From: a virus | IMG/VR virus record: IMGVR_UViG_3300046820_002137 | Coordinates: 1-64,000 of that record | Length of the DNA stretch: 64,000 nt | Direction: 5' to 3' (one strand) | Part shown: positions 693-21,277 of the stretch, in pieces | Layout: the number at the start of each line of letters is the position of its first letter | Numbering within the stretch: position 1 is the first letter of the stretch | Translations under genes and position numbers: made by a program | Notes under the pieces: model-generated | Told to the model about the DNA's origin: nothing | Databases searched by the model: none | The model's input: only the letters and a program-made list of their open reading frames with translations

Positions 693-1235
693 TTACGCTA
701 AAGTACCTGGTGTTCTCGCAGAAGAGACCGGAGCTTGTTGTACTGGTGCTTGTTGTGTTGGTGCTGCCGTAGGCGCCGCAGTTGCTGGTCCTTTTTCAGG
801 GTCAGGTAATTTTGACGCGATTATTGCATCCAATTCTTTTTCTATACTAGGTAAAAGCGGTAATACTTTGTCTATCGAGGTTGTAATCATATTTACTTGT
901 CCTTTATAAACAGGTATAGCCGCGTTTTTTGACGAAGTAGTACTAGTTTTTAAACCTGTAAAATTATTTTTAAAATTATCAATTTGGCCCTTCATCCATT
1001 TGGCCCAAGATTGTAATTTTTGATGATTCGCGTCAATGTCAGGAGCTCTGTTAACACCTCCAGTTACAGCTTTACCTATGTTTTTACCAACATCAGCCAC
1101 TTTCTGAGCGGCTCCTTGTACTCCAGCCTTAACTCTTTGTCCTAATTGTTCATCAACATTTTCTTTTGTTTGATAGTGTTGTTCCAGTATCGCTCTTTTT
1201 TCTTCTTCAGTTAAATTATTAAATAAATTTTTCAT
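693..1235 (-). CDS. Small late protein with candidate capsid-targeting N-terminus
   Basis: 180 residues from ATG 1235. This start is preferred over an in-frame ATG at 1262 because the upstream one would lie on the far side of the ATATTTAT box at 1252-1259. The N-terminus MKNLFNNLTEEEKRAILEQ ends in I16-L17-E18-Q19, matching the (L/I)-x-E rule of T4-type prohead proteases. An Ala/Gly/Lys-rich stretch and a Thr/Ser region follow. The last 35 residues are an Ala/Pro/Thr/Gln-rich tail with repeated TAAPT and QQAPV words, probably disordered. The gene is a single transcription unit with its own promoter box and terminator. No enzyme domain is recognised; a head-associated structural or internal protein is inferred. 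Confidence 0.75.
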   Translation of the reverse strand: MKNLFNNLTEEEKRAILEQHYQTKENVDEQLGQRVKAGVQGAAQKVADVGKNIGKAVTGGVNRAPDIDANHQKLQSWAKWMKGQIDNFKNNFTGLKTSTTSSKNAAIPVYKGQVNMITTSIDKVLPLLPSIEKELDAIIASKLPDPEKGPATAAPTAAPTQQAPVQQAPVSSARTPGTLA

Positions 1236-1251
1236 GTTCTTTAATTTTATT

Positions 1252-1259
1252 ATAAATAT
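1252..1259 (-). promoter_or_regulatory. Candidate late promoter box ATATTTAT
   Basis: The sense strand reads GATATTTATAATAA, 16 nt upstream of the ATG at 1235 and just beyond the terminator of the methyltransferase unit. Confidence 0.55.
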
Positions 1260-1273
1260 CATTTAAACTAAAA

Positions 1274-1300
1274 AAAATGGAGATTATTCATCTCCATTTT
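1274..1300 (-). terminator. Terminator overlapping the methyltransferase stop
   Basis: The 11-bp stem AAAATGGAGAT with ATCTCCATTTT encloses a 5-nt loop. The arm proximal to the gene encodes the final codons of the methyltransferase and the TAA at 1286-1284 falls at the loop, so the hairpin is built into the gene end. Confidence 0.8.
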
Positions 1301-2141
1301 CAAACTCTAAAACTTGTTGACTCTTTTGGTCAACGAAGGATTGTATCCTTTCTATAGAAATCTTAGTATAATTTTCAGAAAGTTCAATGCCAATCCATCT
1401 CCTGTCTAAAGTTTCCGCAGCTACACAACTTGTTCCGCTTCCATTGAATGGGTCTAGTATTATGTCATTCTTATATGACAATATCTTAATAGCCTTGGTT
1501 GGGATGTCCATTGAAAATGTCGCTTTGGTCATTGGTCTTGAGTCGTTTAGGTATTTCCATTGTCCAAACACAAGTTCCATGAATTCCTTTTTATCCTGTT
1601 CGGTATATAACATTTTTGTCTTACCTTCTTCAGTTGTAATTGGTTCTCCCTTCCATTGTGGTTCACCTTTAACTTTCTTGATATGGTTTTTTTTGTAAGC
1701 TAATATTACACATTCTTTTGGGTTATAGATATATGGACTTGATGGACTCATCCAACTACCCCAAGCGGTTGTCTTACTTCTATGAGGACTATCCTCCTCT
1801 AAGTCAACAATACCGAAGAATTTAAATCCAATTTGTTTCATCACCTGATAGACTTCAGATACAAAAAATATTCTACCACCCTTTTCTTGTCGGTTAATCT
1901 CATAAGGAATGTTCAAAGCAATTCTTCCGTCATCTTTTAAGACTTTATAGGCTTCTGTGAGCCAATTCTTGCTGAACTCAAGATACTCATTGATTTCCAT
2001 GTCATCATCATGAGTGTCATACTTAATGTTCACGCCATATGGAGGAGATGTCACAATCAAATCGACGAATGATTCGGGCATTTCTTTCATTACCTCGATA
2101 CAATCACCATTTATTACTTTATTTATATAGTTTTCAATCAT
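1284..2141 (-). CDS. DNA methyltransferase (N6-adenine/N4-cytosine type)
   Basis: About 285 residues. The catalytic motif TSPPYG lies near residue 32 and the SAM-binding motif DPFNGSGTSCVAAE near the C-terminus. This is the order catalytic motif first, SAM motif last, of beta-class site-specific methyltransferases, which transfer methyl from S-adenosylmethionine to adenine N6 or cytosine N4. The start at 2141 (MIENYINKVINGDC) is chosen because its ATG overlaps the TGA of a small upstream gene; an in-frame ATG at 2237 would run through that gene. No restriction endonuclease lies next to it, so protection of phage DNA against host restriction is the likely role. The recognition sequence cannot be read from the sequence. 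Confidence 0.92.
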   Translation of the reverse strand: MIENYINKVINGDCIEVMKEMPESFVDLIVTSPPYGVNIKYDTHDDDMEINEYLEFSKNWLTEAYKVLKDDGRIALNIPYEINRQEKGGRIFFVSEVYQVMKQIGFKFFGIVDLEEDSPHRSKTTAWGSWMSPSSPYIYNPKECVILAYKKNHIKKVKGEPQWKGEPITTEEGKTKMLYTEQDKKEFMELVFGQWKYLNDSRPMTKATFSMDIPTKAIKILSYKNDIILDPFNGSGTSCVAAETLDRRWIGIELSENYTKISIERIQSFVDQKSQQVLEFENGDE

Positions 2142-2271
2142 CTTGTCTATTAATAATATTTTTTCTCCACCACTTTCCAAATTTACTTTTTGGTTTATAT
2201 GATATAAACCTATCAAAGTATAGAATACTAAAAACAAGTATAGTTGAAATTAAGTAGATTTTCCAAACCAT
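2134..2271 (-). CDS. Small single-span membrane protein
   Basis: A 45-residue frame, MVWKIYLISTIL..., with a hydrophobic segment at about residues 3-19 followed by a basic, Trp-containing tail with KFGKWWRKNII. It starts one base after the TAA of the DUF3310 gene (TAAAATG) and its TGA overlaps the methyltransferase ATG (ATGATTGA). This packing is the main evidence that it is real, together with the coherent membrane-anchor-plus-basic-tail pattern. It is too short for routine gene calling and is masked by an N-terminal extension of the methyltransferase frame. Function unknown. Confidence 0.7.
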   Translation of the reverse strand: MVWKIYLISTILVFSILYFDRFISYKPKSKFGKWWRKNIINRQDD

Positions 2272-2272
2272 T

Positions 2273-2500
2273 TTATTTTTCTAAATTTTTAATTTTTCTA
2301 TCAAGATACCAAAGTGCTTTTTTGAGGTCCTGAAGTTCTTTATCTGAATCTTTTTTACCCGCTCTTGCAACATACTTAACCACATTGAATAGATAAGCGT
2401 CCATATCTAAACCCCAAGCTTCACATACTTTCACAACTTCATACGTATTTTCTTCACCGCCATAATGGTCGGGATGATTAACCATTTCTTTTTTTTCCAT
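2273..2500 (-). CDS. DUF3310-family small protein
   Basis: 75 residues. The N-terminus has the family signature VNHPDHYGG, then EVVKVCEAWGLDMDAYLFN and VKYVARAGKK, and the C-terminus has DLKKALWYLDRKI. DUF3310 proteins are common in phages of many hosts; a relationship to the phage T7 gp1.7 nucleotide kinase has been noted, so a nucleotide-metabolism role is possible but not shown here. It heads a tight unit with the small membrane protein and the methyltransferase. Confidence 0.88.
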   Translation of the reverse strand: MEKKEMVNHPDHYGGEENTYEVVKVCEAWGLDMDAYLFNVVKYVARAGKKDSDKELQDLKKALWYLDRKIKNLEK

Positions 2501-2583
2501 AACTCAATTTATCTTAATGGATTATTCAGTGTGCTCTTGGATTCATTTACACCATATGTAGCTTTAGCCTCTGATAACCCATT

Positions 2584-2772
2584 TTATTTTTGATTTTTTA
2601 CAACATAATAACCTTTACCATACTTACTTTCTTCAACTAATCCCTCATCTACCATTTCATTAATAAATTTTTCAGTGTCTTCTATTGAAATCTTTAGAAT
2701 ATGTCTTGAGATATATGTTATGTGAATTGGGAGTCTTAACTTATCCAATAAATTTTTTTTGATTGTATTCAT
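2584..2772 (-). CDS. Small winged-helix-like protein
   Basis: 62 residues. The pattern LRLPIHITYISRHILKIS, then EKFINEMVDEGLVEES, then YGKGYYVV fits a winged helix: recognition helix followed by a two-strand wing. This suggests a small DNA-binding regulator, inferred from pattern only. Its ATG lies inside the end of the upstream small gene (2741-2914) in another frame. Translation beyond its TAA stays open for 24 more codons, noted in the findings. Confidence 0.65.
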   Translation of the reverse strand: MNTIKKNLLDKLRLPIHITYISRHILKISIEDTEKFINEMVDEGLVEESKYGKGYYVVKNQK

Positions 2773-2914
2773 TTTCTAAGATTTTAAATTTATCTCTTAT
2801 TTCATTGGATTCAAAAATCATCATGTCATACTTTTTGTAGATTTCAAGTAGATTTGAGTCCAATTCTATTTCATTAATTTTGTTTTTTCCAACTATTAAT
2901 TTATTAAACCCCAT
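2741..2914 (-). CDS. Small charged protein in an overlap gap
   Basis: 57 residues beginning MGFNKLIVGKNKINEIELD, acidic and helical, with no recognised domain. The ATG overlaps the last 11 bases of the gene ending at 2904, and the TAA lies inside the start of the winged-helix gene. The frame exactly bridges an otherwise empty gap between two genes, the normal style of this genome. Function unknown. Confidence 0.68.
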   Translation of the reverse strand: MGFNKLIVGKNKINEIELDSNLLEIYKKYDMMIFESNEIRDKFKILENEYNQKKFIG

Positions 2915-3692
2915 TTTCTATAGTTTTACTTTCTTCTAATAATTTTTCAACTTTAATACTTTGATGAATTAAAGATATCACTTTTCTTTTCATTATTGGT
3001 ATCAAAGTTTCATCTAACGGAAACATTTCATGACAAACAACTTCAAATATAGGTAACTTACTCTCATTGTTCTTCTTATACGTGGGTGATGATTGTGATA
3101 TGAGTCCAATGACAGTCAGGTCAGTATTACCACTAAAAATTAACTTAGAGTCAGTTTTAAATTGGTTCTTAACACCTCTTATCTTTTTCATACTATATTT
3201 CCACACATATAAATCGTCCTTGTATTTTGTATAATAAAAACCTGTTTTACTTGATAGATTCTTCTTATTTCTTTTAACATTTGCTGTCACCGAATCATAT
3301 GCCAATGACCATAATGATTTGGCTATATTAAAATAATCAAACAACATAGGTTGACTAACTCTAATTATTTTTTGGTACTCGGCAAATTCCTCATCGTTCA
3401 AATTAGGAATATCCTTAACTTTCAAATCCTTTATAAAAATTTCATCATTATCTGTTGTTAACTTTTTATCGGTGTACAATATTTTGTTTTGTGTCAACAG
3501 TGTTTGAATATTACCCAAATGTATTGAAAGTTCTGTAAACATAGGGTAAATTCTCATTTCTTCCAAATTTCTATTCATCTTTTGGAAATATCCTAAAAGT
3601 ACATATTCTTTTTGTTCGGCATCGATTGTCCCATTAAAGAGCCAATCGGTATCCATAACAAAAGAGTTATTATTTTTAGTTTTTTTAGACAT
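2904..3692 (-). CDS. Hypothetical phage protein
   Basis: 262 residues, soluble and mixed alpha/beta, without a signal peptide or membrane span. It opens with a Lys/Asn-rich MSKKTKNNNSF and then DTDWLFNGTIDAEQKEY. The middle carries basic patches (NVKRNKKNLSSKTGFYYTK). The C-terminus is helical. No catalytic motif is recognised. A TATATTTG element 8 nt upstream of the ATG resembles the -7 element of Bacteroidota promoters, so this may head the unit running down to the methyltransferase. Confidence 0.75.
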   Translation of the reverse strand: MSKKTKNNNSFVMDTDWLFNGTIDAEQKEYVLLGYFQKMNRNLEEMRIYPMFTELSIHLGNIQTLLTQNKILYTDKKLTTDNDEIFIKDLKVKDIPNLNDEEFAEYQKIIRVSQPMLFDYFNIAKSLWSLAYDSVTANVKRNKKNLSSKTGFYYTKYKDDLYVWKYSMKKIRGVKNQFKTDSKLIFSGNTDLTVIGLISQSSPTYKKNNESKLPIFEVVCHEMFPLDETLIPIMKRKVISLIHQSIKVEKLLEESKTIENGV

Positions 3693-3699
3693 CTTATCA

Positions 3700-3707
3700 C
3701 AAATATA
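3700..3707 (-). promoter_or_regulatory. Possible host-type -7 element TATATTTG
   Basis: This matches the Bacteroidota -7 consensus TAnnTTTG, 8 nt upstream of the ATG at 3692. No TTTG lies at the expected distance upstream; the nearest is 14 nt away, so the call is weak. Confidence 0.3.
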
Positions 3708-3733
3708 GTTGATATTGGTGACAAAAAAAAGAT

Positions 3734-5128
3734 TTACCCAATTCTCATTATATAGTAATGTTCATTATTGATATATTCCGTATCATAACTTCCGTCATAT
3801 GAAGCCAAAATCTGATACCCATCACTTTCTGCAAGTCCTTTGGCTAAAGAGTCCATATCAACATATTCACTAATATCCATACCGAATTCAGATAAAGAGC
3901 CTTTTGGGTCATTCATTTTATCTGATACCATTTCATCAATTTTTTCTTCAATCATATCCTCAGTTGGTTCCCCATTGGGTTGCATATTATCAATCTCCTC
4001 TTGTGAGCTATCAATATGACCTTTAATAATATCTATCTTTGACTGAATCTCATCATATCGTTTTCTGTACTCATCTGGGTCCTCAATCTCATCATTTAAG
4101 TTTTCTTGTTTTTGTTCTAATTTACTAATAACTCCTTCCGCCTTACTAATATATTCTTCGAGTTCCCGTTTTCTTTGTTCTTGTTCTTCTGAATCAGGTA
4201 ACTCACTTTCATCAAAATAAACGTCAATGTTACTCCTTACGTCATCATCATAAAAATCTTTGAAGAAATATTCAATTGCGTCGATATCTAAATGGTCGTC
4301 AATAAAATGGTCTCTTAAACCTTCAATACCGACCTCATCAAGGTAGTTTTTAGCGTACTCTAAGGCTGCTCTGTCCATTTCATATTCATCTCCAACTGCA
4401 AATTCTTGACCCTCTAAATCATCAATACCAATAACCTCAAACTGAGATAAACCGTAATAGCTATATTTCATTGATATTATACTATACACATCCGCCGAGT
4501 TTTGTTGTATTTCTTGAATTTTTTCCTCAACATCACTTATCTCATTCGCCAAGTCATCATCCTGACCTTCGGTTTCATTATATCTATTGGTTAAATCCTC
4601 CAAATCCGCTTTCAATCCCTCTAATTCTCCCTGTTTTTCACCTGTTATAGGTTTGATATCTCCATTACGGACCAAATGTTTAAATAAAGCTTGAGCCTTT
4701 AATCCATCATCATCTTCATTATCAATATCCCACTCATTATTTCTTCTTCTCTCATCGGCTTGATTTAGTTTTTCTTGTCGAATGGCCTCACGTCTTCTTC
4801 TATCTATCGGAGTTCCTCCATCCCATATGTAACCATTAACTTTAACGTCAGATAAATCATTAATTTTTGTGTTTCTAATATCTAATCTACCCTCAACATA
4901 TTTAACATTACCCAAAGAATCTGTTGGTGTGTCTGATAGGTCCAAATCACCGGTAATCCATATTGGTTTTCCTCCAAACATTTTGAGTTTACTAACACCT
5001 TTGCCATGATAACTTCCGAACTTCATTAGTTCTGTAAACTCCTCAGGTGAAATTTTGTAAAACTCTTCCTCACTTTGTTCTACCAATATATTCTTTACAG
5101 TATTTCTTAAACTTAGACTCTTTGACAT
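3734..5128 (-). CDS. Acidic coiled-coil protein with LRR-like segment
   Basis: 464 residues from ATG 5128. The N-terminus MSKSLSLRNTVKNILVEQ ends in L15-V16-E17-Q18, a candidate prohead-protease site. Residues about 45-95 hold two leucine-rich-repeat-like turns (GDLDLSDTPTDSL and GRLDIRNTKINDL). Long acidic coiled coils flank a segment rich in D/E/Y/F (FFKDFYDDDVRSNIDVYFDE), a type I recall from other large phages. An ATATTTAT box lies 4 nt upstream of this ATG, so the transcript would be almost leaderless; an in-frame ATG at 5152 lies on the other side of the box. Probably a late protein. Whether it is a virion component is inferred. Confidence 0.72.
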   Translation of the reverse strand: MSKSLSLRNTVKNILVEQSEEEFYKISPEEFTELMKFGSYHGKGVSKLKMFGGKPIWITGDLDLSDTPTDSLGNVKYVEGRLDIRNTKINDLSDVKVNGYIWDGGTPIDRRRREAIRQEKLNQADERRRNNEWDIDNEDDDGLKAQALFKHLVRNGDIKPITGEKQGELEGLKADLEDLTNRYNETEGQDDDLANEISDVEEKIQEIQQNSADVYSIISMKYSYYGLSQFEVIGIDDLEGQEFAVGDEYEMDRAALEYAKNYLDEVGIEGLRDHFIDDHLDIDAIEYFFKDFYDDDVRSNIDVYFDESELPDSEEQEQRKRELEEYISKAEGVISKLEQKQENLNDEIEDPDEYRKRYDEIQSKIDIIKGHIDSSQEEIDNMQPNGEPTEDMIEEKIDEMVSDKMNDPKGSLSEFGMDISEYVDMDSLAKGLAESDGYQILASYDGSYDTEYINNEHYYIMRIG

Positions 5129-5132
5129 AATC

Positions 5133-5140
5133 ATAAATAT
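5133..5140 (-). promoter_or_regulatory. Candidate late promoter box ATATTTAT
   Basis: The sense strand reads AAATATTTATGATT, ending 4 nt before the ATG at 5128. It is one of two divergent boxes in this intergenic region. Confidence 0.45.
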
Positions 5141-5183
5141 TTGTAAATTCAAATAAAATATTTACAATATACTCCAAATTTAG

Positions 5184-5191
5184 ATATTTAT
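5184..5191 (+). promoter_or_regulatory. Candidate late promoter box ATATTTAT
   Basis: The + strand reads AGATATTTATGGTAA, 28 nt upstream of the ATG at 5220. It is divergent to the box at 5133-5140. Confidence 0.5.
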
Positions 5192-5219
5192 GGTAAATAA
5201 ACGTTTAAAATAAAAAGAT

Positions 5220-5390
5220 ATGGGATGCGGGTGTAAAAACAAAGGTAATCAGGCTCAAGCTCAGCCTCAACCTCAGCCATTGAACCAGATTCAACCTCAG
5301 GCTCAACCACAACAAGCTCCACAACAGAGTAACAATCAAAACATTCAAGAGTCGATTAAAAAAGTTGTGGAAAAATATTACAGAAAATAA
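5220..5390 (+). CDS. Small Cys/Gln/Pro-rich protein (MGCGCK-type)
   Basis: 56 residues. MGCGCKNKGNQ is followed by about 30 residues of alternating Q, P and A, and a helical C-terminus IKKVVEKYYRK. The unit is complete, with an ATATTTAT box upstream and a strong hairpin terminator 19 bases after the stop, which argues strongly for expression. The paired cysteines could bind metal. The low-complexity middle suggests a flexible linker. Function unknown. Confidence 0.75.
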   Translation: MGCGCKNKGNQAQAQPQPQPLNQIQPQAQPQQAPQQSNNQNIQESIKKVVEKYYRK

Positions 5391-5408
5391 TTTAATTTTT
5401 TGTACTTT

Positions 5409-5430
5409 AAAGGGGGTTTATAACCCCTTT
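5409..5430 (+). terminator. Rho-independent terminator
   Basis: The stem AAAGGGG with CCCCTTT is extended by G-TT/AA pairing with a one-base bulge and followed by seven T. It closes the one-gene unit 5220-5390. Confidence 0.85.
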
Positions 5431-5490
5431 TTTTATTTAAAGTATTTAGGATTTGAATTTTTTTGTTTATCTATTTCAAAAACATTTTAT

Positions 5491-6315
5491 ATGAAGTACA
5501 TTAATCCAAAATCGAGAAGAGGTATTGTGAATAAGTTTGCGGATTTTATTCTTTGTGAGATTCAAAAAGAAAAAAAATACAAAACAATAATTGAGATTTC
5601 AGACTTTAAAACCTTTTTGGTTGTTGCAGGAAAAACTGAGTCCAAAACTATTTTGGATTTAACTGAAATCAAGGAAAGATTTTATGAAGAAAATAAAGAG
5701 TTGATGGTTGACTTAAATTACGAAAGACTAAATGTAATTGATATAATTGAGTATGATAATATAGGATTTACTGGCACGTTTGAGTCTTATTTTGAATTTC
5801 ATAATACAATTCATCCTTATTTTCATGAAAAGGTGCTAAACTATGTATATAATCACATTGATGTTCAATATAATAGTTTAGACTTTAAAAAGGAATTAAT
5901 CTTTGATTTAGATTATGACCATTTGAATGAACCAAATTCTATGTTCAGTAGAAATTATATTTGCGTGTCGTCGGAATTCCCATATGGTTATAGTTTAGAT
6001 AATGGTAGAGCCCATCTTTATTACTCAGAATATATTTGTAACCAATTATTCTCATCCATTAAAACGGACAAAATAACTTTTAAAATTTCAGACAATAAAG
6101 ATGATAATGGTGATTTAGATATTCAAATTATCTCTAATTCACCTTATCTAACTGAAAAAATTAAATCTATGGTTTTGGATGTTTTTGATTTTAACATACA
6201 AAGATTCATTAATACCACTCTCAAGAAATATGATTTATCAAAAGAGATTGATAGTCAGTTAGAAACCAAACCATGGTTAAAAAAGGACCTAATTAACGAA
6301 TTATTTATTATCTAA
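5491..6315 (+). CDS. Hypothetical protein
   Basis: 274 residues from ATG 5491 (MKYINPKSRRGIVNKFADF). The frame is open upstream to 5365, but those 42 codons would run through the terminator at 5409-5430, so the later start is chosen. The protein is soluble and rich in Asn, Asp, Tyr and Phe, with no recognised motif, signal peptide or membrane span. It is one of the few + strand genes in the left half and converges on the gene at 6312-6836 with a 4-base 3' overlap. Confidence 0.7.
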   Translation: MKYINPKSRRGIVNKFADFILCEIQKEKKYKTIIEISDFKTFLVVAGKTESKTILDLTEIKERFYEENKELMVDLNYERLNVIDIIEYDNIGFTGTFESYFEFHNTIHPYFHEKVLNYVYNHIDVQYNSLDFKKELIFDLDYDHLNEPNSMFSRNYICVSSEFPYGYSLDNGRAHLYYSEYICNQLFSSIKTDKITFKISDNKDDNGDLDIQIISNSPYLTEKIKSMVLDVFDFNIQRFINTTLKKYDLSKEIDSQLETKPWLKKDLINELFII

Positions 6316-6836
6316 ACTCTTTTAGAATAAGATACGACTTGGTAAAAATCTTTTTTATCTTGACAATAATCACTAATCAAAATCAATAGATTTTTGAACA
6401 TAAAAGCGTTAGGTGTTTGTTTCTCACATCTAATGAATAATTCAATTAAAGTTGATACGAATTCAACTGAAAATTCGCCTAAATTATCTATTGTGAAATA
6501 CTTTTCACTAAAATAATCTTTATAAATTAATTGATAATTTTTTCTTTCTTCTTCATTATTAAAGGGTTCCATCTCATCATAAATCTCAATCCATTCATTA
6601 ACAAACTTACATAAATCATCAGGAGCAAATTTTGATTTGATAATTAAATCCACAATCCAATGTGTGTGAGATGGGGCTCTAAGTCGTTTGTTAGGTGCCT
6701 TATACTTAACAATAAAATCTAAATCAGGGTTCGCACCTCTCGAACCCTGATATATTACCACAATATTACCATCCTCCAATTCCCAAAAATTAATAGGTGT
6801 ATGGAGTTTACCATTTTTGTTAAAATTAAGACTCAT
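6312..6836 (-). CDS. Conserved hypothetical protein
   Basis: 174 residues. The N-terminal part has a distinctive basic segment, DLDFIVKYKAPNKRLRAPSH followed by THWIVDLIIK, and the C-terminal half is helical. I recall similar words from hypothetical proteins of phages and bacteria but no established function. It is the last gene of a five-gene run starting with the PcfJ-like gene at 9488. Its ATG overlaps the glutaredoxin stop (TAATG), so it is probably translationally coupled. Confidence 0.72.
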   Translation of the reverse strand: MSLNFNKNGKLHTPINFWELEDGNIVVIYQGSRGANPDLDFIVKYKAPNKRLRAPSHTHWIVDLIIKSKFAPDDLCKFVNEWIEIYDEMEPFNNEEERKNYQLIYKDYFSEKYFTIDNLGEFSVEFVSTLIELFIRCEKQTPNAFMFKNLLILISDYCQDKKDFYQVVSYSKRV

Positions 6837-7117
6837 TAACCAATGTGTTCTTTAATTATACTAACCGCTTTGTCCAATTCTTCATAATCTCTACCTGGCG
6901 CATACAAATGTGAAATAGGATTATTATTTGGCGATTCTATTACCATAAATGATGGTACAAAATCATTACTTGTTGCCTTAACAAACATATCATATTCATC
7001 TTTATTTTCGACTATGTCTCTATTAACAAATTCAATTTTTTCCTCTTTTAACATATTTTTGAACTGTTCACAGAAAGCACACCCTTTCATTGTAAATAAC
7101 ACAACTACCTTATCCAT
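6836..7117 (-). CDS. Glutaredoxin
   Basis: 93 residues with a thioredoxin fold. The active site is CAFC (residues 13-16), and the cis-proline segment is NDFVPSFMVI. Glutaredoxins reduce disulfides using glutathione or related thiols; in T4-like phages they serve as electron donors to ribonucleotide reductase. No reductase is in this window. It overlaps the thioredoxin gene by 8 bases, so the two redox proteins are made together. Confidence 0.9.
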   Translation of the reverse strand: MDKVVVLFTMKGCAFCEQFKNMLKEEKIEFVNRDIVENKDEYDMFVKATSNDFVPSFMVIESPNNNPISHLYAPGRDYEELDKAVSIIKEHIG

Positions 7118-7433
7118 TTAGTATACTATTAGCAAATTCTTTTATTTGTGATTCACCTAAAACACCTACTCTTGTAGATGATTCTTTACCGTTAGAAAAT
7201 GATTTAGTTGTTGGAATACTTCTAACTCCGTATCTTTGTGCAATTTCCCTATTTGAATCAACGTTTATGGTATAAAGAGATACTCCAAAATTTTCGTTAC
7301 GAAGTGATTGAGATACTCTTTCAAATGTTGGTTTCATCATTTTGCATGGTCCACACCAAGGGGCCCAAAATTCAACGACCATCTTTTCGCCGTTCTTTAA
7401 TTTTTGTTCAAATTGTTCTGTTGTTAATTCCAT
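7110..7433 (-). CDS. trxA: Thioredoxin
   Basis: 107 residues, a typical full-length thioredoxin. The canonical WCGPC active site sits in VVEFWAPWCGPCKMMKP, and the cis-proline segment is GVRSIPTTKSF. It acts as a cytoplasmic protein-disulfide reductant, for example for ribonucleotide reductase. It lies between a small unknown gene (7436) and glutaredoxin (7117), overlapping the latter. Confidence 0.95.
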   Translation of the reverse strand: MELTTEQFEQKLKNGEKMVVEFWAPWCGPCKMMKPTFERVSQSLRNENFGVSLYTINVDSNREIAQRYGVRSIPTTKSFSNGKESSTRVGVLGESQIKEFANSILNG

Positions 7434-7435
7434 CT

Positions 7436-10642: not shown

Positions 10643-12007
10643 TTAAGTAAGATAGTAAAATCCTTCTCCTTCGTCAGACAATACCTCTTTAAGCGCCGGT
10701 GGTATCTCAACATTTGGATTTGCTCCTTTAAGATTGAGTAGGGCCAAATTAGGTATGTCCTTGATTGATTCTGGCAAAGATACTAAATCTTTGTTATTTG
10801 CCAAATTCAAAAACTTCAAATTTTTCAAATCACCCAAATTTTCAGGTAATGTTCTTACAATATTTGACATTAGTAAAGCATCAAGGTTCTTAAATCTTGT
10901 AATACTTTCTGGTACGTCAAGTGCAATATTTTCTTTTGATTTATTTGTAACAATAAGATGTTCAATTGTATCAGGTAAACTTTCAAATAGTTCTTCAAAT
11001 CCATAAAGAGCAATAAACTTACCGGCAGAACTATCAGGATAATTAACCTCAACTTTATTACCACCCTTACTCACCAATCCTTTTGCAAACTCAGGTTTGA
11101 AGAACTCTTTAAGTTCTGACATTGGTCCGTTAAGATATTCAACAAGATTGATTTGTCTATCGTGACGGTCCATAAATTGACTTGATGGGAAGTGGAACTG
11201 AAATCTTTCAACAGGAAGTCCTGATTTTTTACCTCTTTGACCTTTATCGTCATTAGGTAATACAACATACAATGGGCCATCCTTAATATAAGTGTTGAAG
11301 TAATTCAAACCAGGTGATGACGTACACCATCTTGATTCCCCTTCCTCAGGAAGGTAATAACCTCCATAGAAACAAGCAGCGTCTTTACCCAACGCTCCTT
11401 GGTCTTGGATTTTAACAAGAGTCCATGTATTACCTCTGAATATAATTTCACCTCCTGGATGTTCGTATGTCTTACTCGCCTCTTCTTTTTCAGATTTACT
11501 AGCCTTAGTTTTTTGTAGACTCAAATCTTTTGTTAACTCATAAACATCATCTGGAGTTAACTTATTAATATCCCTTTTATCTTGGGGGAATTGATTTTTA
11601 AACCTTTCGTATTTTTTAAGGTCATCAGTAACTTTAAACAAGTCCTCCAAGAATACACGTTGCCATTCCTTAACCGCAGATTTAACCTCAGGGCTATTTG
11701 GGTCAGTGATACCACTTTGTAGTTCAATTTTTGGATTCAAAAAGTTCTTTAACAACCATTGACTGTATTTTCCGACTTTAACATTCTCCATTTTTTCAGG
11801 AGTCAATGTGTCTATATCCTCACCTTGTGGTATTCTTGTAGTTGGGTCAGCTAAGATAATGGCCTTCAAAGTTTCAAAGTCCATTAATCCTTTCGCCTTT
11901 CTACCCTCACCCTCAGTACCTTTTGAAGGTTTAACCATTTTGTCATACAGAACTTGGAAACGTGATTGTTCCAAAATCAAATTTGTTAAAAGTTTTGTAA
12001 ATCTCAT
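10643..12007 (-). CDS. LRR protein with WCT domain and candidate capsid-targeting N-terminus
   Basis: 454 residues. The N-terminus MRFTKLLTNLILEQ ends in I11-L12-E13-Q14, fitting the (L/I)-x-E prohead-cleavage rule. After a helical region comes a domain with ESRWCTSSPGLNYFNTYIKD, then GPLYVVLP, then RFQFHFPSSQFMDRHDRQIN. I recall this arrangement from other large phages; its function is unknown. The C-terminal 120 residues form leucine-rich repeats (LDALLMSNIVRTLPENL, then LKFLNLANNKDLVSLPES, then LALLNLKGA), a protein-binding scaffold. It has its own late-type box 17 nt upstream. A virion-packaged effector is a reasonable but unproven idea. Confidence 0.78.
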   Translation of the reverse strand: MRFTKLLTNLILEQSRFQVLYDKMVKPSKGTEGEGRKAKGLMDFETLKAIILADPTTRIPQGEDIDTLTPEKMENVKVGKYSQWLLKNFLNPKIELQSGITDPNSPEVKSAVKEWQRVFLEDLFKVTDDLKKYERFKNQFPQDKRDINKLTPDDVYELTKDLSLQKTKASKSEKEEASKTYEHPGGEIIFRGNTWTLVKIQDQGALGKDAACFYGGYYLPEEGESRWCTSSPGLNYFNTYIKDGPLYVVLPNDDKGQRGKKSGLPVERFQFHFPSSQFMDRHDRQINLVEYLNGPMSELKEFFKPEFAKGLVSKGGNKVEVNYPDSSAGKFIALYGFEELFESLPDTIEHLIVTNKSKENIALDVPESITRFKNLDALLMSNIVRTLPENLGDLKNLKFLNLANNKDLVSLPESIKDIPNLALLNLKGANPNVEIPPALKEVLSDEGEGFYYLT

Positions 12008-12024: not shown

Positions 12025-12032
12025 ATAAATAT
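12025..12032 (-). promoter_or_regulatory. Candidate late promoter box ATATTTAT
   Basis: The sense strand reads GATATTTATTAAGTA, 17 nt upstream of the ATG at 12007, in the gap after the Dam gene. Confidence 0.55.
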
Positions 12033-14204: not shown

Positions 14205-14246
14205 AGATTTGAAAATAACCCTTATATTTTATTTAAAATTAATAAT

Positions 14247-15330: not shown

Positions 15331-15371
15331 AATCAATATTTAATATTATTCAATAATTCTTATTATTTGGT

Positions 15372-16013
15372 ATGGACTTCAATTTCCAAATTGTTTTATT
15401 CAAAAATAAAGTAAAAAAGAAAATAATCAATAAGTTTAAAACTTATAAAAAAACAAATAATACTTTCAAAACTCTCATTGAGGAGTCCAACAACGTTATT
15501 TTTCCTGTAAAGTATGAGAACGGTAACCCATCTAATTATGAACTAGCCATATTAGAAAAAAAGTCTAATAAAAAAGAAAAAGTATTTATCAAAGATGAAT
15601 TTGGTAGACAAATAAAGGTTGATTTGGACGACGATGAATTTACAATTAGTAAAATTGTTTCATTCAATGTTGAAGAAGAATTTTTGGATTATCAAACTAA
15701 AAAGAAAATAGATTCTAAGAATTTCATTAAGAAATACCTTTCATCCGCCGGTATTAAAATGATATCAAAATTAAATAACAAAATTGTGGTTCAGATTGAT
15801 GAGTCTTACAATTTGTTCACCTTTAAAAACACTTCGGACTCAGATAGATTTTTAGATGATTTGGGTAATCATTTACGTAAAACAAACAAAAACGATTGTA
15901 TATTAGTAAAAGATTATTCAACAATACACAGGAAATATTTATATGATATTTTGGTTAACCAAGGCTTCCCGAGGCATTATCTTCAGAGACATTCAACAAC
16001 TCATCCAAAATAA
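15372..16013 (+). CDS. Conserved hypothetical protein
   Basis: 213 residues. It has a basic N-terminus (FKNKVKKKIINKFKTYKK), then an acidic/beta middle (DEFGRQIKVDLDDDEF), and a C-terminus with LFTFKNTSDSDRFLDDLG and NDCILVKDYSTIHRKYLYD. No domain is assigned. It is divergent from dnaJ across a 41-base gap holding the palindrome AATATTTAATATT, which could serve promoters on both strands. Its last 59 bases overlap a - strand gene. Confidence 0.72.
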   Translation: MDFNFQIVLFKNKVKKKIINKFKTYKKTNNTFKTLIEESNNVIFPVKYENGNPSNYELAILEKKSNKKEKVFIKDEFGRQIKVDLDDDEFTISKIVSFNVEEEFLDYQTKKKIDSKNFIKKYLSSAGIKMISKLNNKIVVQIDESYNLFTFKNTSDSDRFLDDLGNHLRKTNKNDCILVKDYSTIHRKYLYDILVNQGFPRHYLQRHSTTHPK

Positions 16014-16221
16014 AAATAAATTCAACTCCTGATATATCAATTTTAAACTGTGTTAAATCAGGACTTATATTCTTGAATTGTTTTTTTGTTTCTTCGAAAT
16101 CATTTTTTTTCAACTCGACAACTATAACTTTTCTACCATTAACAAATAGATTATCTATCGCGTCAGAAATTAACGCCATTCTTTCTATCGTCCCATAAAT
16201 AATCTCAGAATTATTTTCCAT
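15955..16221 (-). CDS. Small hypothetical protein
   Basis: 88 residues, alpha/beta, with a hydrophobic strand pattern (VIVVELKKND, VEFIFILDELL). Its ATG overlaps the preceding small gene by 37 bases. The 3' end overlaps the + strand gene ending at 16013 by 59 bases, so part of this sequence may be coding on both strands. Function unknown. Confidence 0.65.
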   Translation of the reverse strand: MENNSEIIYGTIERMALISDAIDNLFVNGRKVIVVELKKNDFEETKKQFKNISPDLTQFKIDISGVEFIFILDELLNVSEDNASGSLG

Positions 16222-16370
16222 ATAGTAATCTTTTCCTTTTTAGGAATTATTTCCTCTTTTTTTGTCTTTTTAATTTCTCGGATAAACTTAAGTTTTTCGT
16301 TTTCAATATCTCGTTTATCCTTTTCTATTTCATTTTGTAACCATTGTAGTCGGCTTGAGTTCGTCTTCAT
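16185..16370 (-). CDS. Small basic coiled-coil protein
   Basis: 61 residues. LQWLQNEIEKDKRDIENEK forms a charged coiled coil, a Lys-rich stretch follows, and the C-terminus is TIWKIILRLFMGR, which could be an amphipathic membrane-contact helix. It overlaps genes on both sides in different frames (41 and 37 bases), as is usual in this run of small genes. Function unknown. Confidence 0.68.
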   Translation of the reverse strand: MKTNSSRLQWLQNEIEKDKRDIENEKLKFIREIKKTKKEEIIPKKEKITIWKIILRLFMGR

Positions 16371-16761
16371 TGTCTTCTAATTCTAAAGTTTGTGTTGACT
16401 TAATATCAAATTTAAGATTTTTCAAATTATTTAAACTCTGTTTTTCAAAAACGTTTTTTAACTCATCAACTTTGGATTGAAATAATCTTTCTTTTTCTTC
16501 TCTTTCCAAATTGTATTTGATGATACTTTTTACATTACCTGAAACCTTTTCAACTTCTTCTTCATTAAATTCAGAAACAAATGAAAATAATTTCTCTCCC
16601 ATATTTTGAGATTCCTGTTGTAAGATTTTGTCTTCTTCAATATACTTCTTAGGTAATTTCCATGATTCAGGAAAACTAACATCAAAACTAAGATAATTTT
16701 TTAATTTCCTGACCGATTGTAAGTAAGGAAATAAACTAGAAAATTCTTTATATAGACTCAT
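16330..16761 (-). CDS. Conserved hypothetical protein
   Basis: 143 residues, helical and highly charged. Distinctive words are LQSVRKLKNYLSFDVSFPES, then WKLPKKYIEED, then IIKYNLEREEKERLFQSKVD. I recall closely similar words from other environmental large phages, suggesting a conserved T4-like accessory gene, but no function is established. It sits in a run of small co-directional genes downstream of the Hc1 gene. Confidence 0.75.
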   Translation of the reverse strand: MSLYKEFSSLFPYLQSVRKLKNYLSFDVSFPESWKLPKKYIEEDKILQQESQNMGEKLFSFVSEFNEEEVEKVSGNVKSIIKYNLEREEKERLFQSKVDELKNVFEKQSLNNLKNLKFDIKSTQTLELEDNEDELKPTTMVTK

Positions 16762-16765
16762 ATGA

Positions 16766-16951
16766 TTATCGAAATAAATAAGTTATGATGTATGAAACTG
16801 TTAACCCTAAGATAACAAGCTCCCTATCACTTTTCAAGACTCTTATGTCTGAATTTTGTGATAGGGCGCCTATTAACCTAACTGTTGCTCTTAAAACAAC
16901 TAAAACTGAAAAAATGAAAATGAAAAAAAATAAATTATCTATATTAAGCAT
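16766..16951 (-). CDS. Small membrane protein
   Basis: 61 residues from ATG 16951 (MLNIDNLFFFIFIFSV), whose ATG overlaps the end of the Hc1 gene. It has two hydrophobic segments, about residues 6-24 and 43-60, flanking a polar loop with SQNSDIRVLKSDRE. An in-frame ATG at 16984 would lie deep inside the Hc1 gene and is less likely. Probable inner-membrane protein of unknown function. Confidence 0.68.
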   Translation of the reverse strand: MLNIDNLFFFIFIFSVLVVLRATVRLIGALSQNSDIRVLKSDRELVILGLTVSYIITYLFR

Positions 16952-17126
16952 TCTCAGTTTTTTTTCTTTCTTCCAAAATTTCACCTCTCAAGGTTTGTAA
17001 CAAAGCCTTAAGTTCTTGAGCCGATTTTCTAGCTCTTGTTCCCGCACTTTTATTTCCCTTGAAGAATTTGGTCGCGTCTACTGACAACTCTTCTGTCAAT
17101 GACTTGATTTTTTCTAAAGTTTCCAT
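16944..17126 (-). CDS. Histone H1-like protein Hc1
   Basis: 60 residues. ATKFFKGNKSAGTRARKSAQ and ELKALLQTLRGEILEERKK match the short Hc1-type proteins of Bacteroidota, in which a GNKAAGTRxRK core follows an acidic helix. These proteins bind DNA non-specifically and compact it. In a phage, the protein could organise phage DNA or compact the host nucleoid; which is not decidable here. A TAAATTTG element at 17142-17149 lies 15 nt upstream of the ATG and resembles a host -7 element. Confidence 0.82.
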   Translation of the reverse strand: METLEKIKSLTEELSVDATKFFKGNKSAGTRARKSAQELKALLQTLRGEILEERKKTENA

Positions 17127-17204
17127 CGTAAATATTTTTTACAAATTTATTATTAATTAATATTAATTTTTCCTTCTTGGTAGTAAAGAGAAAAACAATT
17201 TTTT

Positions 17205-17672
17205 TTATTTATTCATATTTTTATCTAAATTTTTATAGACTGAACTTATCATATCTAAATCTGACTTAGTGAATGGTGTTTTTAGGTCAAAAAGGTCAAT
17301 AAAGAATTCAGTTACCGAATCTCTTACCTTTTTATTTTCTTGTTTGTAGAATATTTCTTCAAAAAAAGAAAAAAAATAATCAAAGTGTTCTCCTTTTTTA
17401 TTGAACTTTATTTTTTCTTTTTGAAAATTGTCAACCACTTTATTCCAACACCAAACAAAGTGGTTCACTTTATCCTCCTCAGACATGTTAACTTTTGTTT
17501 CACTAGGTGAATCCGATTCTCCCAAGTAAGTCTCAATAATTAATTCATTTAGTGATTGACAAAAATCTGAAAATAGTTCCAATTTTTCAGGTACTATATT
17601 ATTACTCTTAAACCACAAATCAACTTCTTCAGGTTTAACCTGTTTTGTAACGTAATTAAAAAAATTATCCAT
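17205..17672 (-). CDS. Hypothetical protein
   Basis: 155 residues, acidic and rich in Phe and Trp (NHFVWCWNKVVDNF, FDYFFSFFEEIFYK), all-helical by pattern. No domain is recognised. The start codon lies inside a perfect palindrome with 13-bp arms, so translation or transcription may be controlled there. It is followed by a 78-base gap with a T-rich stretch and no clear hairpin. Confidence 0.75.
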   Translation of the reverse strand: MDNFFNYVTKQVKPEEVDLWFKSNNIVPEKLELFSDFCQSLNELIIETYLGESDSPSETKVNMSEEDKVNHFVWCWNKVVDNFQKEKIKFNKKGEHFDYFFSFFEEIFYKQENKKVRDSVTEFFIDLFDLKTPFTKSDLDMISSVYKNLDKNMNK

Positions 17673-17691
17673 AAGAAATTCTTATGGATAA
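17665..17691. promoter_or_regulatory. Palindrome spanning a start codon
   Basis: The arms TTATCCATAAGAA and TTCTTATGGATAA around a single central base are perfectly complementary. The ATG at 17672-17670 of the downstream gene falls in one arm. It could be an operator or an mRNA hairpin that hides the start codon. Confidence 0.5.
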
Positions 17692-17719
17692 AATATAGTT
17701 AAGATATTTTAGATGTATA

Positions 17720-19033
17720 TTATTGAGTCTTTTGATTGTAACCAATTAAATTTTTCATTCTTTCGAATTCTTCATTAATTTTTTGATTTTTCTTTTCATC
17801 GGTAGACTCTAGTTTCATCAAAATTTTGTTAGCCTTTTCACCGTCTTGTGTGTCTTGGACAATTGGTTGTGGTGACTTATTATAAGCCTTTCTTTTAACT
17901 TTAGCTAACATATTATCTTTTCTTATTTTGTTTCTTTTTTTGTTAACTTCAGATTTACCGGTATTTGCCCATTTAGGATTATTTCCGGTTCTTGAAGAAC
18001 CCTCAATATTATCATTAATCCAATCTTCATTAGGGTGAATCTCATCATAATCAATATTCTCTAAAGCGGCCGCAGTAAAGTTGTCAATATAATCTTTAAC
18101 CGCATCTGATGGTTGATAAGACTTTTTATCCATCTTAGCTAATTCTCCATTTCCTTTTGGAAATATTTCAGGATTCATGTCGTAATTACCTTTAGAGCCA
18201 TCTTTCAAATAATCCTTCATTTTTTTAACCACAGACTGTAAATATTCTTTATTTTCTTTACCTGATGCTGTGTGAGCCTTTTGATAAACATTAAGACCTT
18301 TAGTTTTACCCATTGATTTTAATTTCTTTTCTTCTTGTAAAACAATATTTTCAATGAACTCAATCATTTCACTCTCAGTCATTTGAATAGACTCTCTTAC
18401 ATTAAACTTTTTACCCCCAACTTCAAATGTTTCATCACCATCTTTTTTTGCTTTAGCTAAAGCACCTGTAAAAGCATTTCCTTCTTCAACTTCTTCATCG
18501 GTTTCTTTTTTCATACTTCTTAGTTTTTTGAAGTCAGCTCCTGTTATTTTACCTTTAGGTTCTGCAACATCTATTCTAGATTGTCTTCCATGTAACTTTT
18601 CACTCACTTCACCGCCCATAAATCTTGCTTCATGATATTTACAAGCGGCATCATTATATTCATCACTACTTGTATCACAGAATTTGTTAATCATACCAGC
18701 AGGGTCTGAGTTAAAATTCTCTTCCTCTGCAACGTAATCAAATTCATCAGTTTCATTCATAGAACCAGATGAACACTGTTCACAAATTCCTTCTCTCATT
18801 TCTCCACCGCATTGTTCACAAACAGTACCATCCTCTTCGTAGAATTCTTCATTCATTCGATATCCACATTCAGTACATTCCCCCTCCATTAATGAAGACG
18901 AACCACATTGTTCACAAACTGTGTTATCACTTTCGGTTAATTTTGTAACCAATTCATCCGCTCTTTCTTCGATAGTTTCGTTTATAATTTTTCTTACTAA
19001 CGAATCGATATACTTATTTAATGACTTTTTCAT
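17720..19033 (-). CDS. Zinc-ribbon late protein, possibly head-associated
   Basis: 437 residues. The N-terminal helix MKKSLNKYIDSLVRKIINE ends in I17-N18-E19, a possible prohead-protease site. Residues about 35-95 carry repeated Cys pairs (CEQCGSSS, CTECGY, CEQCGGEMREGICEQC), probably two zinc ribbons. Lys/Glu-rich segments follow, including FNVRESIQMTESEMIEFIE, and the protein ends with NEEFERMKNLIGYNQ, words that recur in head-region proteins of large environmental phages. A late-type box lies 15 nt upstream. A scaffold, core or co-packaged protein is inferred. Confidence 0.72.
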   Translation of the reverse strand: MKKSLNKYIDSLVRKIINETIEERADELVTKLTESDNTVCEQCGSSSLMEGECTECGYRMNEEFYEEDGTVCEQCGGEMREGICEQCSSGSMNETDEFDYVAEEENFNSDPAGMINKFCDTSSDEYNDAACKYHEARFMGGEVSEKLHGRQSRIDVAEPKGKITGADFKKLRSMKKETDEEVEEGNAFTGALAKAKKDGDETFEVGGKKFNVRESIQMTESEMIEFIENIVLQEEKKLKSMGKTKGLNVYQKAHTASGKENKEYLQSVVKKMKDYLKDGSKGNYDMNPEIFPKGNGELAKMDKKSYQPSDAVKDYIDNFTAAALENIDYDEIHPNEDWINDNIEGSSRTGNNPKWANTGKSEVNKKRNKIRKDNMLAKVKRKAYNKSPQPIVQDTQDGEKANKILMKLESTDEKKNQKINEEFERMKNLIGYNQKTQ

Positions 19034-19048
19034 GCGATTTTTTTATTA

Positions 19049-19056
19049 ATAAATAT
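19049..19056 (-). promoter_or_regulatory. Candidate late promoter box ATATTTAT
   Basis: The sense strand reads GATATTTATTAATAAA, 15 nt upstream of the ATG at 19033. It is identical over GATATTTATTAA to the box at 12025. Confidence 0.58.
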
Positions 19057-19068
19057 CTAATTTTTACG

Positions 19069-20004
19069 TTATAGTTTATCTTTTATCAAATTATATTCAT
19101 ATTCTATAATGTTCTTAACAACCTGTTCACTAACATTATATTTTTTACTAACTTCTTTAATTACTCTATCAAGAGTTTTATTTTCAAATATATTTAAGGC
19201 CTTGATATCCCCTTGGTTACAATAAGGAAACTTTTTACATTTCTTTTTTACTTGTACAAACTTTCCTCCGGGTATCTGTGTTTTTTTGTATGACCTTCCT
19301 GAACCTCGTTCATGATTACCTTTCATATTAACATCCTCAAAACCTGGAGCGTCATATGCTCCAGCTGAAGATGCTCCTGTTGCCTCAGTTGCTTCAACTT
19401 TTTTAGGTGTCTCTTTAAAACTTTTCTTAACAAAATCACTATTAGGATTAAATCCTACGGGCCCTACAAAAGCACCAGCAGAACCTGAACCTGTCGATTC
19501 CTTACTTTCAATTTTTTCTAATTTGTCGTAATATTTTGGGTCTTCAAATAAATGGTCCATTGATATTTCTTTGGCTCTTTCTTTGTCATCCGTATGTTCC
19601 ATTTCAACTTTAATACCTTTGTTAAGTTGTTTTTTTAACATACTTTCAACTTCTGATTTTTTTCTACCACCCTTTGAATATTTACCGACTAAATCATTAA
19701 AGGTTTTTTTGTCGGCCTTTCCCCCTTTTAACTTTTCTTCGTTAGTCTCTTTCTTTTTTCTACCTTGGCAATGGGCCTTTTGACTAAATCCTTTTGGGTT
19801 ACTACAATCTATACTTTTCTTATATTTTTCAGACCATTTTTCTTCAATTTCTTCATTAGATTCTATCTTTTTAGTTAGATTATTAATCTCCTTAAACCCT
19901 TCTCCAGCATCTGTACTCATTATATTAGAGTTGGTCATTATTTTTTTAGAAATCTCGTCCTTCAGTTGGGTGAGCATATTTTCTTTTAGTCTATCTTTAC
20001 CCAT
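19069..20004 (-). CDS. DUF5661-like protein, possibly head-associated
   Basis: 311 residues, very Lys-rich. A central segment, NKGIKVEMEHTDDKERAKEI followed by SMDHLFEDPKYY, resembles the DUF5661 family. An earlier SIDCSNPKGFSQKAHCQGRK is a recurrent phage word with two cysteines. The linker contains two Ser/Gly/Ala repeats (STGSGSAGAFVGP and ATGASSAGAYDAP), and a Cys pair CKKFPYC lies near the end. It follows the spanin-like gene by one base. Function unknown; such modules are often found near phage head genes. Confidence 0.68.
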   Translation of the reverse strand: MGKDRLKENMLTQLKDEISKKIMTNSNIMSTDAGEGFKEINNLTKKIESNEEIEEKWSEKYKKSIDCSNPKGFSQKAHCQGRKKKETNEEKLKGGKADKKTFNDLVGKYSKGGRKKSEVESMLKKQLNKGIKVEMEHTDDKERAKEISMDHLFEDPKYYDKLEKIESKESTGSGSAGAFVGPVGFNPNSDFVKKSFKETPKKVEATEATGASSAGAYDAPGFEDVNMKGNHERGSGRSYKKTQIPGGKFVQVKKKCKKFPYCNQGDIKALNIFENKTLDRVIKEVSKKYNVSEQVVKNIIEYEYNLIKDKL

Positions 20005-20005
20005 T

Positions 20006-20410
20006 TTAAATAACTAATAATAGTAGTACAAGGAATACACCTCCTGCGATAGTACCTCGTTTATACCACTTGAATTGTTTATTCTTAGAATCCAATTGAC
20101 TTTGTAGTTTAGTATTTGCTTTACCGTACTCAACAATTTGTCCATCTTTTTCTTTTATTATGAACTGATACGTTGAATCTTTTTTCTCCAAATAAGTTAT
20201 CATGGTATCTTTCAAAGATTCCCTTTCTTCTAACTTTCCTATTTTGATGTAGGCTTGAGTTAGTTCATCTTTACAACCATCATATTTAATTAAATCCTTA
20301 ATAATCAGTCTAGCTGTCTGAGTACTAATTTCTAGTTGAGTTGTATCTTTTTGAGAAAAACTTTTTAAGCTCAGAATGAGTATACTTATCAACATTAATA
20401 ACCTTACCAT
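20006..20410 (-). CDS. Spanin-like protein with two hydrophobic ends
   Basis: 134 residues. The N-terminus MVRLLMLISILILSLKSFSQ looks like a signal peptide without a lipobox cysteine. A periplasmic-type coiled coil follows, and a C-terminal hydrophobic helix (GTIAGGVFLVLLLLVI) is preceded by KWYKR. Its first 86 bases lie inside the 3' end of the upstream coiled-coil membrane gene in another frame, recalling nested Rz/Rz1 spanin pairs, though the topology differs from a classical Rz1 lipoprotein. Location after the amidase supports a lysis role; this is inferred. Confidence 0.6.
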   Translation of the reverse strand: MVRLLMLISILILSLKSFSQKDTTQLEISTQTARLIIKDLIKYDGCKDELTQAYIKIGKLEERESLKDTMITYLEKKDSTYQFIIKEKDGQIVEYGKANTKLQSQLDSKNKQFKWYKRGTIAGGVFLVLLLLVI

Positions 20411-20672
20411 TTGTTTGAAGTTTAATATCGTTTATAGTTTGGTCTACCGCCAAAATTTCGTTAGTTACATTATTTATGTCCGCATCTAATTTCAATAGTT
20501 TCTCATCAATCATAGAATTAACCGCAGTTGCGGAATCGATGGATATTTGTAAACTATCTATTTTATCATAGTGTGATTGAACATCAGTTTTAATCCCATT
20601 GGTCAGGAAAACTGAGTACCCTACCATTATCACTATGACAAATAACAATACCGTTTTTAAAATTTCGTTCAT
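20325..20672 (-). CDS. Putative inner-membrane spanin-like protein
   Basis: 115 residues. One N-terminal membrane span (LKTVLLFVIVIMVGYSVFL) is followed by an extracytoplasmic coiled coil, the layout of an Rz-type i-spanin. Its ATG overlaps the previous gene by 4 bases, and the next gene begins 86 bases before its end in another frame. I-spanins disrupt the outer membrane together with an o-spanin at lysis. There is no sequence motif that proves this role. Confidence 0.6.
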   Translation of the reverse strand: MNEILKTVLLFVIVIMVGYSVFLTNGIKTDVQSHYDKIDSLQISIDSATAVNSMIDEKLLKLDADINNVTNEILAVDQTINDIKLQTNGKVINVDKYTHSELKKFFSKRYNSTRN

Positions 20673-21277
20673 TTTTCTACCTTATTTGTTTTTTTACGTG
20701 AAGCCAAAACTTTAGCCCATTTTGACTTAAACTTATCATAATAAGTTTTTAACTTATTAATCATTTCTACAAAATTTTCATCAGCCTTAATCATATCACC
20801 GTTGATGTACATTCCTCCATCCTCACCAATAGAAAAGAAAAATTCAATATCAAAATCGATAATTTTTCCTGACCATTCAACATTATTTGGATATACATTT
20901 AGTTTATTGAAGTCAACTAAATCTGATACCTCGTTAACAAACTCATCCATTGTTTCTTGGAATGCAATTTTATCATCGGTTGTCAATTCCAAATCTGAAG
21001 AATCTTTACCGTGTAGGACCATAATACCACCTGAGATTCTATATCCCTGACTTTTATCTCTATCGGGTTCAGTATCATCTTCGATTTTATCCTCAACAGA
21101 TTTAGCAATATTCATTTTTTTGGTTATATTGTCTGAAGCCAAATCGGAACCTTGTTCTGTTATGATACCATATCTATTCTTAATTTCACTTATCTGTTCA
21201 TTAATAGTATTATTCGAGAGCATATTTCTCGAAGCCTTTAACAACTTCTTAATTTCATCATGTGAATTGTTCATCAT
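20669..21277 (-). CDS. Conserved phage protein with tandem [IL]-x-E-Q sites
   Basis: 202 residues (201 from the second Met). The N-terminal 40 residues contain two [IL]-x-E-Q sequences (TINEQ and IITEQ). The core is YRISGGIMVLHGKDSSDLEL, then DKIAFQETMDEFVNEVSDLV, then NVYPNNVEWSGKIIDFDIEF, then DEFF-like acidic and IGEDGGMYINGDMIK segments, and the tail is basic (KSKWAKVLASRKK). I recall this core as well conserved among marine T4-like phages. The two sites suggest head targeting. It overlaps the amidase end by 20 bases. Confidence 0.75.
   Translation of the reverse strand: MMNNSHDEIKKLLKASRNMLSNNTINEQISEIKNRYGIITEQGSDLASDNITKKMNIAKSVEDKIEDDTEPDRDKSQGYRISGGIMVLHGKDSSDLELTTDDKIAFQETMDEFVNEVSDLVDFNKLNVYPNNVEWSGKIIDFDIEFFFSIGEDGGMYINGDMIKADENFVEMINKLKTYYDKFKSKWAKVLASRKKTNKVEK

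Follow-up and report, generated by a model that had tools for sequence, protein, structure and literature searches.

Candidate cleavable capsid-targeting tags, exchangeable between unrelated proteins, in a fragmentary T4-like phage record and its relatives

Five otherwise unrelated proteins are encoded in the window analysed here, the first 64 kb of the 120,573-bp IMG/VR virus record IMGVR_UViG_3300046820_002137, and each begins with a short helix ending in the word [IL]-x-E. In phage T4, the prohead protease gp21 recognizes the motif L/I-X-E, a propeptide (the capsid-targeting sequence, CTS) targets proteins to the head, and Alt and the internal proteins (IPs) are ejected; an aspartate at position 10 of IPIII prevents cleavage there and leaves targeting intact (PMC9026906). 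The question raised by this locus is thus whether the five N-termini are tags of that kind, as proposed by a first-pass annotation. Our comparisons make it very probable that the five proteins, along with no fewer than three others of the record, represent tagged, protease-cleaved internal head cargo of the T4 capsid-targeting type, in a greatly expanded version. The basis is comparative: tags that recur, a conserved site, a protease and a matching capsid site in relatives, and a common ATATTTAT box. From these we infer packaging, cutting and what the cargo does and, by analogy with T4, ejection.

The five open frames and their words are all as first described, with ILEQ at residues 16-19 of protein 1, LVEQ at 15-18 of protein 2, ILEQ at 11-14 of protein 3, INET at 17-20 of protein 4, and both INEQ (E27) and ITEQ (E41) in protein 5 (numbering as in Table 1). 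Gene starts were set by a first-ATG rule, and some N-termini may be misplaced. The word alone is weak evidence in the 120,573-bp record: [IL]xE lies within residues 4-30 of 30 of the 89 proteins, against 23.6±4.0 in shuffles, and [IL]xEQ is found in 5 proteins, clearly above the 1.0±1.0 of shuffles. The [IL]xE count, too near that of the shuffles, was thus dropped as a stand-alone proof. One false positive is the 'ILVEN' of NrdB, which we take to be native to that enzyme family. In the related record G005, the [IL]xE count is 119 against 79.1±6.6. It is the comparison with relatives, which include G003, G004, G005, G007, Flavobacterium phage immuto and Mel-JY01, that carries the case.

The modularity of the N-termini was assessed by blastp in six genomes, the first 32 residues being compared apart from the remainder and two internal segments serving as a control. 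A similar N-terminus is joined to a dissimilar remainder in 459 protein pairs (135 proteins), against 28 pairs for either internal segment. Part of the resulting clusters are ordinary signal peptides, and those, ending FSQ or FAQ, cluster separately; by inspection, the tags are basic or amphipathic, and the hydrophobic core and signal peptidase site of a signal peptide are not seen in them. The largest cluster, of 56 proteins, is the 'MKKIVRLTESDLxxIVKRVIxE' / 'MKYLITES' group, and a hidden Markov model (HMM) of this group matches 78 N-termini and 1 internal segment. It recognizes 38 tagged proteins in each of G003 and G005, mostly in one block in the first 50 kb; in G005, 2.5-48 kb is a block of small genes with near-identical N-termini, including many 'MKYLITES...' paralogues of ~110 aa. 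For the commonest tag, viral contigs yield at least 120 matching stretches, and bacterial and archaeal genomes, totalling 257 Gb, yield 2; a tblastn search with a 23-residue tag against phage records gave no match, the query being too short to be informative. Tagged proteins were found in far greater number, as had been anticipated, but the single common tag first supposed has given way to several unrelated tag families, ~7-45 residues long, to all of which the terminal word is common. Likewise, the expectation that only the tag would be conserved holds between families; the members of one orthologous family have a conserved mature part as well.

In 12 orthologous families, an [ILV]xE site is retained while the tags differ in sequence and length: every anchored member has [ILVM]xE upstream of the anchor, within an allowed distance of up to 70 residues in some families, so that per-family fractions are not strict. 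Over 234 sites, the P3 residue is I in 159, L in 67, V in 7 and M in 1; as P1 and P3 are fixed by the search pattern, the real finding is the presence of a site in every anchored member. P2 is free, and the residue after the cut (P1') can be A, Q, S, N, T, E or G. The word [IL]-x-E thus stands, and its usual extension by Q, part of the initial description, is rejected. The tag of the RYMFF protein is of the RLTES type in G003, but short and unrelated to it in G005 (MKKIKLTESELTNIVKRVLEE↓ and MKNLNNIIKKVLKE↓, arrows here and below marking the known or predicted cut), and that of the DHH protein has 7 residues in four phages and 16 in G004. For the gene that follows the capsid gene, tag length ranges from 8 to 46 residues, its starts being automatic and the longest possibly wrong. 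Superoxide dismutase is extended at its N-terminus by 30 residues, and the word exactly at the junction with the domain is ITE↓M, LTE↓M, INE↓M or ISE↓I. These swaps between orthologues suggest that the tag moves while the mature domain stays.

Conservation also bears on where each protein of the window would be cut. Among 34 homologues of protein 3, the first 20 residues hold the invariant T4, L7, I11 and E13, the middle of ILE and the following residue being free; its AlphaFold model has a low-confidence helix 2-13 that ends at E13, and a PDB fold search returned a match to the leucine-rich repeats (LRR) only. E41 is the sole invariant column in the first 78 residues of protein 5 (36 homologues), which shifts the predicted cut from INE27, rejected as not conserved, to ITE41. 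The AlphaFold model of this protein has a low-confidence helical N-terminus ending at or near the predicted cut, and a PDB fold search with it gave no match. In homologues of proteins 2 and 4, distant relatives included, the tags end LVE, LLE or LKE and INE, LSE, VSE or ISE, respectively. No relative of the whole of protein 1 was found; its N-terminus pairs with that of G003_44761 (MKHLLNDLSEEEKNRIREQH), the remainders being dissimilar. As other members of this tag family in relatives end further on (NQYLINE↓QS and LHNINE↓QS, i.e., LINE↓Q and NINE↓Q), a cut of protein 1 after VDE29 (VDE29↓Q) appears at least as likely as the originally favoured one after ILE18 (ILE18↓Q, position 1182). A PADLOC search of the tagged proteins gave no convincing defence match.

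Table 1. Tagged proteins, predicted propeptides and upstream boxes. Positions are those of the window, or of the 120,573-bp record where stated.
Feature	Position	Strand	Remarks
Tagged protein 1	693..1235	-	180 aa; mature part low-complexity; tag of '(S/T)EEEKxxIL' family
Predicted propeptide of protein 1, MKNLFNNLTEEEKRAILEQHYQTKENVDE↓Q	1149..1235	-	predicted from comparison by eye with this tag family in relatives
ATATTTAT box before protein 1	1252..1259	-	
Tagged protein 2	3734..5128	-	464 aa
Predicted propeptide of protein 2, MSKSLSLRNTVKNILVE↓Q	5078..5128	-	orthologues end MLVE↓, VLLE↓, LLKE↓
ATATTTAT box before protein 2	5133..5140	-	
Tagged protein 3	10643..12007	-	454 aa; C-terminal leucine-rich repeats; middle domain with invariant WCTS
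Predicted propeptide of protein 3, MRFTKLLTNLILE↓Q	11969..12007	-	I11, E13 invariant in 34 homologues
ATATTTAT box before protein 3	12025..12032	-	
Tagged protein 4	17720..19033	-	437 aa; weak zinc-ribbon match
Predicted propeptide of protein 4, MKKSLNKYIDSLVRKIINE↓T	18977..19033	-	orthologues VLSE↓, LVSE↓, IISE↓
ATATTTAT box before protein 4	19049..19056	-	
Tagged protein 5	20669..21277	-	202 aa; folded domain ~72-199
Predicted 41-residue propeptide of protein 5, end GIITE41↓Q	21155..21277	-	conservation of E41
Tagged protein	record 75799-76464		YITE↓Q
Tagged protein	record 92386-93204		KINE↓G
Tagged Fe/Mn superoxide dismutase	record 100707-101480 (L002:18704-19480)		LITE↓MKRIGIDKLP; extension stops exactly at domain

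A cleavable tag calls for a protease. Searches for one in the window, where none had been noted at first, and in the whole 120,573-bp record were empty. Open frames of this record encode sheath, tube, baseplate, DNA polymerase and glycosyltransferases, and among them genes for a terminase, portal, protease or capsid were not seen. Relatives with homologues of protein 3 have records of up to 322 kb, and a gp21-type protease is present in 7/7 searched relative records of at least 229 kb and, below 229 kb, in only three. As every searched record of that size has the protease, its absence here is best read as fragmentation, and the 120,573-bp record as a fragment without head genes. The gp21-like protease expected by the first-pass annotation is missing from the fragment and present in its larger relatives, an outcome in favour of that annotation. 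The phage of the window is T4-like and its host probably a member of the Bacteroidota, the host being taken from the relatives and published work.

The protease of the relatives aligns with T4 gp21, and H85 and S140 (T4 numbering) are invariant in G003, G004, G005, G007, immuto and Mel-JY01. Their major capsid protein carries a site of the same kind, INE↓A in 36/38 and IYE↓A or VSE↓A in the others; it reads LINE↓A in relatives, with IVSE↓A in immuto and LISE↓A in Mel-JY01 at the corresponding place. A Pfam search for Gp23 in eight relatives returned nothing, yet the controls were silent too and the result was not used. In the T4 record, the substrates have this word too, in FIAE↓A (ipII/III), TITE↓A (ipI), MELITE↓L (Alt) and FLTE↓A (gp23), and the MELITE↓ end of Alt is strikingly like MKYLITE↓.

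The tagged genes also have an upstream element in common. ATATTTAT lies 12-25 nt ahead of the start, on the gene strand, in four of the five tagged genes of the window, in agreement with the first description; none was found upstream of protein 5. Its total in the window is not enriched (17 against 16.05 expected). Upstream of starts in the 120,573-bp record, however, the sense strand of ATATTTAT is found at 16/88 genes, against 3 for its reverse complement, and it precedes 6/8 tagged genes against 10/80 others (Fisher p=3e-4). The association is found again in G005 (21/37 tagged genes against 30/204 others, p=2e-7) and G003 (22/38 against 40/270, p=3e-8). In the 120,573-bp record, ATATTTAT also stands ahead of genes of virion type, those for sheath and tube among them, and in G005 ahead of terminase, scaffold and tail-type genes. 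As it is common to tagged and virion genes, it looks like a late promoter element.

According to the scheme that we propose, the eight or more tagged proteins would be expressed late, as internal head proteins, and each would be carried into the prohead core by its short, mostly basic, helical N-terminal propeptide. At head maturation, a gp21-type protease (Peptidase_S77), presumably coded in the missing part of the genome, would cut after [I/L/V]-x-E and set the mature protein free inside the head, DNA would then be packaged around it, and the cargo could finally be ejected with the DNA, as are Alt and the IP proteins of T4.

Other explanations of the N-termini have to be considered. They could be uncut helices that dock to the scaffold or another head part, the glutamate closing the helix for structural reasons. 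Predicted helices do stop at or near this residue, and the cutting of the tags is a prediction from sequence. We nevertheless hold such docking to be improbable, because the same [IL]xE↓A occurs in capsid proteins whose T4 counterpart is cut there, because the site is retained when the preceding tag is replaced or resized, and because P2 and P1' vary freely. The helices could alternatively target a membrane, an intracellular compartment or a host partner, or constitute a regulatory domain, which their basic and amphipathic nature and the near-confinement of the commonest tag to phages would fit. This is very unlikely, as it leaves unexplained both the terminal word held in common with the capsid protein and the late-type box held in common with virion genes. 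That the word is a chance occurrence in lysine- and isoleucine-rich N-termini is hardly credible: the [IL]xE count of the record and the chance words in NrdB and other proteins speak for it, but neither the column conservation in homologues of proteins 3 and 5, nor the recurrence of tags on unrelated proteins, nor their association with the ATATTTAT box is then accounted for.

The reading as cleaved head cargo also has points that weigh against it. At record 76469-76693, a conserved neighbour with the word RITE reads RVTQ in G007 and may be uncut, and in the commonest small-gene family ('MKYLITES...') the first LTE/ITE word is often the only one. The tag lists may hold some false members. As the genome is incomplete, the protease and capsid of this phage are taken from relatives, and no virion proteomics for these phages was found in the literature.

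The likeness to the T4 system (IPI, IPII, IPIII and Alt, cut by gp21) extends to the short N-terminal propeptide, its end word [L/I]-x-E, the protease family, the presence of the word in the major capsid protein and the divergent mature parts. T4 has a handful of tagged proteins, whereas G003 and G005 have 38 each, with several unrelated tag families and many kinds of mature domain. The ejection proteins of phiKZ and SPN3US similarly lose a propeptide after a glutamate to a prohead protease, and their paralogues may have an identical N-terminus with a diverged rest (gp53/gp54). Several of their propeptides, however, exceed 100 residues, the motif is A-x-E (SPN3US) or S-x-E (phiKZ) instead of [IL]-x-E, and short-tag swapping across dozens of proteins is not described in the accessible portions of that literature. 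The layout described for bS21 phages of freshwater Bacteroidetes (Chen et al., 2022; PMC9723584) recurs in G003-G005 and G007: the terminase, portal, protease and capsid genes are accompanied by an S21-like gene of the opposite strand, which codes for a ribosomal protein of ~60 aa and lies between the portal and protease genes. In the available part of PMC9723584, it is only speculated that bS21 itself might be encapsulated, and neither N-terminal tags nor a packaged cargo of the present type was found mentioned. A literature search that excludes most subscription journals yielded no paper describing these tags. The principle is that of T4, a capsid-targeting sequence and gp21; the scale, the diversity of the tags and the evidence for their exchange set the present case apart.

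As the tags appear to be exchangeable modules, any protein could become cargo by gaining one, and since dozens of tagged proteins occur in relatives, the heads of these phages probably take up a large protein cargo, which may be injected. A broader proposal, to which we give an even chance, is that exchangeable, cleavable tags are a general packaging code of a whole lineage of T4-like Bacteroidota phages, with ~40 or more enzymes and effectors per genome delivered at the next infection (superoxide dismutase, polyphosphate kinase 2-lysozyme, amidase, peptidoglycan binders, SET-domain protein, WYL). Mass spectrometry normally identifies packaged or injected phage proteins singly; with a packaging signal readable from sequence, the likely cargo of a large group of environmental phages could be listed, and many candidate effectors of early infection, unknown in function, would be part of it. 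The recruitment of new internal proteins by T4-like phages would become a testable question, and the prediction can be tested directly, since tags of this kind are present in a relative in culture, Flavobacterium phage immuto (host Flavobacterium sp. LMO8), one of them being predicted to end LLKE↓G (117631-118632).

Candidate cargo is varied. The superoxide dismutase of the record is possibly packaged. Pfam families among tagged proteins comprise Fe/Mn superoxide dismutase, amidase_2, GH19, WYL, GNAT acetyltransferases and peptidoglycan-binding domains, one protein having MORN repeats, and most tagged proteins are without a family. A polyphosphate kinase 2 fused to a phage lysozyme (L089:9908-11695; G005 28908-30695) has a candidate tag and a ATATTTAT box, and SET and DHH domains are united in one tagged protein of 748 aa (L143:7261-9507; G004 216449-218695), whose orthologues have ~465 aa. 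The peptidoglycan enzymes among the candidate cargo might function during entry, not in the cytoplasm.

Two further observations were made in the window. A DUF5661 protein (19069-20004) is without a clear tag, and a similar stretch is found in a tagged protein of immuto (113188-113946, IIKE↓A). Finally, very long adhesin-like proteins with threonine-proline repeats (TPTPT, TQTPTxT) are encoded at 32117-41503.
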